Origin: Prochlorococcus sp. AG-402-N21
GTDB taxonomy: Bacteria > Cyanobacteriota > Cyanobacteriia > PCC-6307 > Cyanobiaceae
Assembly (NCBI GenBank): GCA_003216435.1
Contig: QCIW01000002.1
Coordinates: 62,001 to 126,000 of the forward strand
Reading direction: 5' to 3'
Length of the DNA: 64,000 nucleotides
Part shown: one piece after another, positions 8,953 to 58,659 of the stretch
Layout: every line of letters starts with the position of its first letter
Position numbering within the stretch: position 1 is the stretch's first letter
Program-made: the position numbers and the translations under genes
Notes under the pieces: model-generated
What the model saw: the letters and a program-made list of their open reading frames with translations, nothing else
Database searches by the model: none
Told to the model about the DNA's origin: nothing

Positions 8953-10248
8953 TTAAATTAGAGAGCCCTCAGGAATGGTTGAATTCTTAACCACCACTAC
9001 TATTCCATTTCTTATATAGAAGCCTAAATCTGGCCTATCAGCCTCTTCAACACGGTCTTTATTGACAATTTTAACGTTATCACCAATTCGTGTGTTCTTA
9101 TCCAAAATAGCTCTTTTTACTGTTGTGCCTTTGCCAACGCCAAGTGGGGTGCCTCCTGCTTGCCTTAAAGCGTTTCTTTCATCGAATGATTCGAAGAAAT
9201 CTGAACCCATTACCAAGCAATCCTCAAGGACCACATCAGTTTCAATACGACTTCTTACACCTAAAACTGAATGATGAATGCTGCATGATTTAAGGATTGA
9301 CCCTTCACAAACAATAGAATTAGTGATTTGTGCATCAACAAGTTTTGATGGAGGGAGATACCTTTGTCTTGTGTAAATAGGGAACTTCTCATCATAAAAA
9401 CTAAATGGTGGCGAAGGCTGCTGGGTTAAAGCCAAATTCGATTCAAAAAATGCACCGATCGTCCCAATATCTTCCCAATAGTCATCAAAAACATAACTTT
9501 TCAACTTATCTCCACGACCCAGGGCTTCTGGAATAACTTCTTTGCCAAAATCAGTATGTGATGGATTCTTATTTAGTAAATCAAATAGTGTTTCACGACT
9601 AAACACATAAATACCCATTGAAGCCAAATATGGTCTTTCCTTAGCTGAATCCACTGACAAACCAAATTTCGAAGTATCCACAGCCATGGCCTTTAAGGAC
9701 TCTCCAGAGGGCTTTTCTCGAAACTCCTTAATATTTCCATCTTGATCAGTACGCATTAATCCAAAACCTTCAGCTTGAGAAGTATCTACAGGCAATGCAG
9801 CCACTGTTAAATCAGCCCCGGTTGAACGATGGTGTTCAACGAATAAGCTGTAATCCATGCGATATAACTGATCTCCTGAGAGAATTAAATATTCGTCAAC
9901 ATCCCATTCTTGAAAAAGCCATTGATATTTTCTAACTGCATCAGCAGTTCCTTCAAACCAAGATGGACTTTCTGGGGTTTGCTGAGCAGCAAGTACCTCG
10001 ACAAATCCTTGTCCAAAAGGAGAACTTAAATTATATGTCTGGGCAATATGTCTATTTAGAGAAGCACTATTGAATTGCGTTAAGACATACATCTTATTGA
10101 TATCTGAATTAATGCAATTACTTATAGGAATATCGATTAATCGATATTTACCTGCCAATGGCACTGCTGGCTTTGCCCTCATTTTAGTAAGAGGGTAAAG
10201 GCGTGAACCTTGTCCACCCCCAAGAATAATCGCTAAAACACGCTTCAT
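8953..10248 (-). CDS. glgC: Glucose-1-phosphate adenylyltransferase
   Basis: GlgC makes ADP-glucose, the committed step of glycogen synthesis. The 431 residues carry the nucleotide loop [13 protein letters not shown] at residues 9-21, [20 protein letters not shown], the catalytic-site regions [15 protein letters not shown] and [13 protein letters not shown], and [11 protein letters not shown], followed by a left-handed beta-helix regulatory domain. A C-terminal Lys ([26 protein letters not shown]) matches the 3-PGA-binding region of plant/cyanobacterial enzymes. It is separated from gnd by 146 bases, so it may have its own terminator or internal promoter. Confidence 0.97.
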
Positions 10249-56864: not shown

Positions 56865-57128
56865 TCATTCATTGTTATTTCCCTCTATAAAAATCCTTCT
56901 AACAAGGTCAGCATTAATATATTTAATCTCTCCTGTATCAATATCTGCTACTTGAAAAATACTATTAACACATGGATCGCGTGCGCCACCTACGACATGC
57001 AGTACTTGACCCATCCACCATTTATCTATATTTTTATGCCTCAATTCTAAATCGTCTTCAACGATAACGATATCACCTGGCTTTACGCGAAGAAACTCCG
57101 GTGTAACTCTATCAATACCTACACACAC
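56865..57128 (-). CDS. DUF3104 protein under a LexA-type box
   Basis: The 87 residues contain LRVKPGDIVIVEDDLELRHK, KWWMGQVLHVVGGARDPCVN and SIFQVADIDTGEIKYINADLV, the DUF3104 signature found in marine picocyanobacteria. The small beta-rich protein has no known enzyme activity. A LexA-type SOS box lies 15-28 bases upstream of its start (57143-57156), which makes DNA-damage induction likely and hints at a role in stress or in response to DNA damage. The gene is isolated, with no co-transcribed neighbour. Confidence 0.82.
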   Translation of the reverse strand: MCVGIDRVTPEFLRVKPGDIVIVEDDLELRHKNIDKWWMGQVLHVVGGARDPCVNSIFQVADIDTGEIKYINADLVRRIFIEGNNNE

Positions 57129-57904: not shown

Positions 57905-57971
57905 ATACGCTACTCAGGAATCTCGTCAAGTGTTGACAATAAAAGTAGAACGTAAGTACTGGGAGAGGTAA

Positions 57972-58010
57972 GTCCAGTGAGAGGGTTTGCACCTCTCAGC
58001 CCGCTTGGAC
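57972..58010 (+). ncRNA. Two-part stem-loop, candidate structured RNA
   Basis: GTCCA (57972-57976) pairs with TGGAC (58006-58010), and inside it TGAGAGG (57978-57984) pairs exactly with CCTCTCA (57992-57998) across the 7-base loop GTTTGCA. GC content is much higher than the neighbouring DNA. No T tract follows, so this is not a simple terminator. It lies between the 112-residue gene and the convergent histone-like gene, and may be a small RNA or a processing element. Confidence 0.4.
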
Positions 58011-58030
58011 GGATCTGGTATTAGCAACTA

Positions 58031-58555
58031 TTAAGAGTTTTCTGCAGTAGCTGCTTTAGCTGCTGCAGATTTTCTAGCACGTCTTGCTGGCCTAGGAGTT
58101 GTTGCTTTAGCCATTCGTTTTGCAACGGATGAGCTTCCTTTAGCTGTTGCTGCTTTTTTAGCAGTTACTTTCTTAGGGGTAGCTTTCTTGGCTGAAGCTG
58201 ATTTCTTAGTAGCCTTACTTTTGGCAGTAGAGGCTTTTTTAGCAGGAACCTTTTTGACAGGGGTTCCTTTACGGTTGCGATGAGAAAGGATTAAAGCCCA
58301 TTCTTCAGCGCTGATATTAGTGGGTTTGTTGCCATGTACTTCGGAGATCTTGGCGGCCTTCTCGATATCCTTTATGAGATTCTTCCAAGATGTCGCAAAT
58401 CTTTTGTCAGATTGAGATTTAGCACCACTCTCTACAAGCGTTTCTACAACACCTTGAGCAGTTACTTTTTTACGACGACGGTTAAAGATTTCTTTTTGAA
58501 GATGAGCAATTAAGGCATCTGCCTTAGCGCTCAGCTTGATAGTTAGTTGAGACAT
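58031..58555 (-). CDS. Histone-H1-like Lys/Ala-rich DNA-binding protein
   Basis: The 174 residues start with a ribbon-helix-helix-like segment (LTIKLSAKADALIAHLQKEI, then VTAQGVVETLVESGA). A helical middle (SWKNLIKDIEKAAKISEVHG, AEEWALILSHRNRKG) follows. From about residue 97 the tail is a Lys/Ala/Ser/Thr repeat such as PVKKVPAKKASTAKSKATKK and KKATPKKVTAKKAATAKG, ending AARRARKSAAAKAA-like (PARRARKSAAAKAATAENS). The tail has the character of histone H1 and bacterial HctA/HctB-type nucleoid proteins. DNA compaction or nucleoid binding is likely; the domain order is unusual. Confidence 0.75.
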   Translation of the reverse strand: MSQLTIKLSAKADALIAHLQKEIFNRRRKKVTAQGVVETLVESGAKSQSDKRFATSWKNLIKDIEKAAKISEVHGNKPTNISAEEWALILSHRNRKGTPVKKVPAKKASTAKSKATKKSASAKKATPKKVTAKKAATAKGSSSVAKRMAKATTPRPARRARKSAAAKAATAENS

Positions 58556-58659
58556 TCAGTAGAAATTACCTATATAATATGTAGCATATTTTGGGTTTAT
58601 CGTACAAATAACAGTAGGGTTTCCCACCTTTATTAGCGGTCATTAATAGGGTAGATCCA

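Follow-up and report, generated by a model that had tools for sequence, protein, structure and literature searches.

A histone-like candidate nucleic-acid-binding protein of Prochlorococcus and a tRNA-like RNA element common to its gene and to T7-like cyanophages

The minus strand of a 64,000-nucleotide stretch of Prochlorococcus sp. AG-402-N21 DNA (contig QCIW01000002.1; hereafter the window) carries a gene for a member of a so far uncharacterised protein family that is under strong constraint in abundant marine phototrophs. The gene is followed directly by a structured RNA, R1, which belongs to an RNA family absent from Rfam and common to phage and host. Our preferred reading, for which we see the chances as evenly balanced, is that the gene encodes a histone-like protein that binds nucleic acids, and that its mRNA carries at the 3′ end a tRNA-like element also present in phages.

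The 174-residue open reading frame (58031..58555, minus strand, ATG start) has exactly the boundaries given in a first-pass annotation of the window. It comprises a conserved head (residues 1–96; 58268..58555, minus strand), delimited by conservation and by structure models of low to moderate confidence, and a Lys/Ala/Arg-rich tail (residues 97–174; 58034..58267, minus strand). The gene is conserved in 60 of 149 relatives, excluding a chance ORF, and its head is under strong purifying selection, with a dN/dS of about 0.04 (0.036), a rough value given that 49 of 400 sampled pairs were usable and dS is near saturation. Both observations show the head-plus-tail ORF to be real, and relatives with the same head do exist: 25 other sequences share 79–95% identity with the window head (alignment A2), and by our own count 49 of the 96 head columns, about half, are invariant across 59 distinct heads. 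The protein has no match in Pfam, NCBIfam, PHROGs or PADLOC and none among PDB sequences, the sole PDB profile match being at E 1.1. The open-access literature searched, judged from its listings, yielded no treatment of the protein family or of R1; a term search of PMC4646655 gave no mention of tRNA, promoter, riboswitch, non-coding, intergenic or histone.

A search of 386 genomes across the cyanobacterial phylum gave matches in 35, of which 33 fall in one taxonomic family; the two outside this picocyanobacterial family, at E 0.002–0.005, were treated as noise. Within the searches made, the gene family is thus confined to one picocyanobacterial family, and such a distribution rules out a widespread nucleoid protein. 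The gene is also absent from 13 listed genomes of genus g17 (1.6–1.7 Mb, near complete), so it does not encode an essential nucleoid protein. A nucleoid role, as the first-pass annotation had proposed, is plausible. The genome studied here (76% complete) has one copy, while relatives give up to five matches per genome and Prochlorococcus holds 1–5 scattered copies.

The head had been described as a ribbon-helix-helix (RHH) DNA-binding fold, and only the predicted order of its elements points that way. AlphaFold predicts for residues 1–52 an extended segment (1–9) followed by helices at 10–29 and 33–51 (pLDDT 80). Over residues 1–51 the order of elements in this model is that of an RHH protein, with no paired strands in the monomer; the strand of an RHH protomer pairs only within the dimer. 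Further helices are placed at about 48–74 and 83–93 by models of low to moderate confidence, and for the 97-residue head AlphaFold (AF2) gives a poor model (pLDDT 62). RHH proteins are absent among the Foldseek matches of the head models, and neither Foldseek nor VIA-align of the models returned anything useful. Pfam scans of the protein and 26 members produced no RHH match beyond chance, with CcdA appearing in one of the 26 at E 0.13. Direct comparison by hhalign with 28 Pfam-RHH_1 peptides (29 were taken and one with a stop dropped; locus L198 was omitted) places head residues 4–22 in RHH register at a score of 10.1, below the 19.2 of the best of 200 column-shuffled heads. Neither profile searches (Pfam, hhalign) nor Foldseek matches establish RHH or any other DNA-binding domain in the head. 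An RHH fold is therefore no more than possible, and no profile relationship to RHH families was found.

The description of the tail as resembling those of histone H1 and Hc1 fared better, as its Lys/Ala-rich, acid-poor composition recurs throughout the family. In 119 distinct complete copies the part after residue 96 is 21–40% Lys+Arg (median 33%), with a median of 27.5% Ala, 0–7% Asp+Glu (median 0%) and a net charge of +11 to +47, and just 3 of 120 tails contain any Phe, Trp, Tyr, Cys or His. Tail length varies between these copies from 39 to 191 residues, as a comparison of orthologues had been expected to reveal. The window tail ends in the motif PRPARRARK, and a pattern search finds such a basic C-terminal motif (e.g. 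GRPARRARK) in 76 of 120 copies, and of the 44 without it many have close variants such as KPRKARRAKR. Searches of Pfam and NCBIfam to E 1 matched neither a linker-histone nor an Hc1 profile.

The gene has its own promoter, an extended −10 element, TGCTACATAT (58577..58586, minus strand), lying 31 nt before the ATG and conserved in the family. The consensus TGnTA[GC] occurs within the last 60 nt upstream in 117 of 120 copies, compared with 13.5% in shuffles, and in 109 copies it stands 31–34 nt ahead of the ATG. This conserved promoter travels with the gene. Two near-identical pairs of copies illustrate the unit that appears to move: L143:6785-7363 and 9652-10229 are separated by 2.3 kb, point in opposite directions and share 99.8% identity over 579 bp; L147:6954-7531 and L148:7269-7846 lie about 500 kb from each other in one genome and share 99.5% over 578 bp. 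In both pairs the match reaches from some 80 bp upstream of the ATG to within a few bp after the stop codon and is bordered by unrelated flanks, the mark of a promoter-plus-ORF unit that was recently copied or underwent gene conversion. The L143 pair lies at sites where another genome has copies only 76% identical (by eye), which suggests gene conversion.

The neighbourhoods of the copies differ. In the Synechococcus-type regions read (L138 and L140) a single copy stands downstream of ftsH, flanked by eda and aroC, with psbA about 5 kb beyond it in L138, the gene names here being our own reading of the sequences. In the Prochlorococcus regions read the gene is at other sites, adjoining different small genes, and the Prochlorococcus copies other than these aroC-type ones form one clade (support 100/100). 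Near the gene in the window (56868-57128) is a DUF3104 protein (PF11302, E 1e-26).

R1 (57968..58024, minus strand) begins 6 nt past the stop codon and has the form of a three-way-junction, tRNA-like RNA. Its core of about 50 nt consists of a stem P1, a hairpin P2 (CCGU-loop-GCGG) and a hairpin P3 with a T-arm-like loop (UGCAAUN or UUCAAUG). In an alignment of 28 rows, each an exact piece of a locus (A3), 96.9% of cells pair and 6 of the 15 R1 pairs have changed on both sides. The R1 model has one match in this genome and 17 strong matches in 15 genomes among 119 relatives (this genome included), all 17 of them at the stop codon of this gene family. Sixteen start −1 to 17 nt from the stop (in one case the copy ahead of R1 is frameshifted); the seventeenth overlaps a read-through ORF. 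Such a read-through is seen in L007 (its protein the same as that of L039), where the ORF runs into R1, so that RNA and coding sequence overlap. When 16 genomes were searched more loosely, seven gene-linked matches scored 64–76 bits and the next best about 18. By text pattern, R1 follows at least 57 of 97 Prochlorococcus-type copies (24 of 62 clusters at 95% head identity) and none of 22 aroC-type copies, the overall count of 57 in 120 coming from a pattern that misses at least L018. Given these frequencies, R1 is not needed for the function of the gene. At L143:7353-7517 a convergent 55-residue ORF follows a copy lacking R1, and several other Prochlorococcus copies without R1 have similar DNA downstream.

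Within hosts the pairs of R1 are kept by compensatory change, which suggests selection and rules out a degenerate tRNA left by integration. An intrinsic terminator was likewise rejected, as a scan finds none on the gene's strand after the gene. ARAGORN calls no tRNA at R1 in the window, in L137 or other host regions, or in the R1-bearing phage loci scanned, and Rfam at gathering score has no match to R1 in the window and reports from the phage loci only Glutamine-II, at other positions.

The same RNA occurs ahead of the major capsid gene of T7-like cyanophages. A search of five phage loci first gave an R1-like match, ahead of the capsid gene in P-SSP3 and P-SSP7 (20.5 bits). A pattern modelled on this P-SSP7/P-SSP3 element found 81 viral stretches, with the major capsid gene downstream on the same strand in 75 (73 at 120–191 nt, two at 397 nt); the other six contigs have only 4–192 nt of sequence remaining past R1. 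Upstream on the same strand is psbA in 65 of the 81, and the remaining 16 each have at most 1500 nt of room. Of 28 scored with the R1 model, 26 reach 32–46 bits and two reach 17 and 14, scores that are not an independent test of homology since the contigs were chosen by the phage-based pattern. Two tests are less biased. A host-derived pattern matches viral DNA in just three places, each some 170 nt ahead of a capsid gene, with scores of 46–54 bits. Unfiltered searching of 10 phage-record loci gives R1 matches at the capsid slot in L294, L157, L158 and L295 (E up to 0.0016), a weak one in L291 (E 0.05), and no full-length match there in L159, L289, L290, L292 or L293. A second R1-like match lies just upstream of psbA in MedDCM-OCT-S45-C4 (L294:3195-3242, 27.5 bits), and L296 and L298 contain further weak ones (13–18 bits). 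When 42 host and phage elements are aligned, 98.2% of cells pair, 9 of the 15 pairs change on both sides, and the covariation score is reached by none of 500 shuffles, in an alignment fitted to the R1 model with 41 hand-chosen sources.

The phage slot is not always filled by R1. In 11 phage records, with classes assigned by eye, it holds R1-type elements in P-SSP2, P-SSP3, P-SSP7 and MedDCM-OCT-S45-C4, tRNA-like elements with a canonical T-arm, GGTTCGATTCC, in S-TIP37 and S-RIP1 (the capsid leaders of L291 and L293), a true tRNA-Gly in NATL1A-7, and a plain hairpin in P-SSP10, 9515-10a, NATL2A-133 and MedDCM-OCT-S05-C849, as also in contig L112. A glutamine-II riboswitch lies upstream of R1 in five of the six phage loci scanned, a seventh locus being host DNA.

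Contig L112 is a T7-like cyanophage fragment that carries the protein gene itself. Its 5668 bp encode portal, scaffold, hli, psbA and the start of the major head protein, with flanks on both sides of the insert similar to P-SSP3 and others. Beside psbA, the family gene (L112:450-944) lies between a phrog_417 gene and the capsid leader, directed against the late genes and retaining its own host-type promoter; R1 was not found in this contig. The copy nests inside the Prochlorococcus clade, nearest L091 (support 83/78), and on this basis we read the transfer as probably from host to phage. This phage-borne copy is known from a single metagenomic contig: the gene is in none of 50,697 phage records and has no match in 72,556 plasmid records, and with one match in viral contigs it is not an ordinary phage gene. 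The presence of the same RNA ahead of the phage capsid gene suggests that both the gene and the RNA have passed between phages and their hosts.

If the protein is indeed histone-like, its head of 96 residues, probably an RHH-like dimer with extra helices, would give dimerisation and specific binding, and the presumably disordered Lys/Ala/Arg tail would coat or bridge DNA (or RNA) by charge. Lys/Ala tails bind DNA through charge, and nucleic-acid binding is what this architecture would lead us to expect. The gene may be seen as a self-contained unit of extended −10 promoter, ORF and, often in Prochlorococcus copies, R1, which would most likely mark and protect the mRNA 3′ end or act as a processing site. 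tRNAs punctuate polycistronic RNAs, and tRNA-processing enzymes recognise T-arm folds. It is mainly because a tRNA occupies the same phage slot that we call R1 tRNA-like and propose a role in punctuation or processing. RNase E is among the few host genes reported as raised in P-SSP7 infection in the review PMC10989914, a rise that, in a connection of our own, would favour a protected or processed phage mRNA.

R1 might instead be a phage footprint, functionless in the host, if the Prochlorococcus copies returned from a T7-like phage that held the gene between psbA and the capsid gene, beside R1. It would explain why the aroC-type copies, in L138 about 5 kb from psbA, lack R1, why the other Prochlorococcus copies form one clade and are at other sites where read, and why in L112 the gene occupies exactly this phage position. 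We consider it unlikely, as the compensatory change within hosts suggests that R1 is under selection, and the L112 copy lies inside the Prochlorococcus clade, making that case one of host to phage, with the gene in the opposite orientation to phage R1. Rather improbable to our minds is an RNA-binding autoregulator that binds R1 in its own 3′ UTR, with phages using an R1 ahead of the capsid gene to recruit the host protein or titrate it, or with that protein repressing capsid synthesis. Strong R1 matches in the hosts searched do adjoin only this gene, phage R1 matches do precede the capsid gene, and one phage does hold the protein gene in the same psbA–capsid slot, but R1 is missing from many copies, including all 22 of the aroC type, and co-inheritance of two adjacent pieces accounts equally well for the linkage. 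A matched RNA–protein pair, in which R1 would be the site on its own mRNA that the host protein recognises, and T7-like cyanophages would have placed R1 before the capsid gene (at least one having taken the protein gene as well) to hijack or escape that control, strikes us as distinctly improbable. An antitoxin-like repressor with a toxin partner, which the first-pass annotation had raised and which the predicted RHH-like element order would favour, is hardly credible given that the gene has its own promoter, that neither it nor its four neighbours match PADLOC, and that neighbours vary between the copies read, with no constant partner or toxin gene among those neighbourhoods.

Since host R1 lies behind one gene only in the genomes searched and phage R1 before the capsid gene, the RNA offers a handle both on how these phages order late-gene expression and on gene traffic in Prochlorococcus.

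Comparison with known systems shows partial likeness in each case. The tail, which we take to resemble histone H1 tails and bacterial Hc1/H1-like proteins, shares with histone H1 C-terminal tails and these proteins a variable length and Lys/Ala/Pro-richness, whereas here it is joined to a conserved, unrelated head, ends in an RPARRAR motif and has no profile match. With the RHH_1/Arc-MetJ-CopG fold (PF01402) the head shares, in the model of residues 1–51, an extended N-terminus followed by two helices, but it differs in its longer helices, its lack of profile similarity, an extra helical segment (48–97) and the long basic tail. As in tRNA, a short closing stem is combined in R1 with a T-arm-like hairpin (loops UUCAAUG, UGCAAUN and UGCRANN), but R1 has no anticodon and only three helices, no CCA end is seen, and ARAGORN does not call it. 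The glutamine-II riboswitch (Downstream-peptide, RF01704), like R1, sits in the psbA–capsid interval of cyanophages, in which R1 is a separate, downstream element that differs from it in both fold and sequence.
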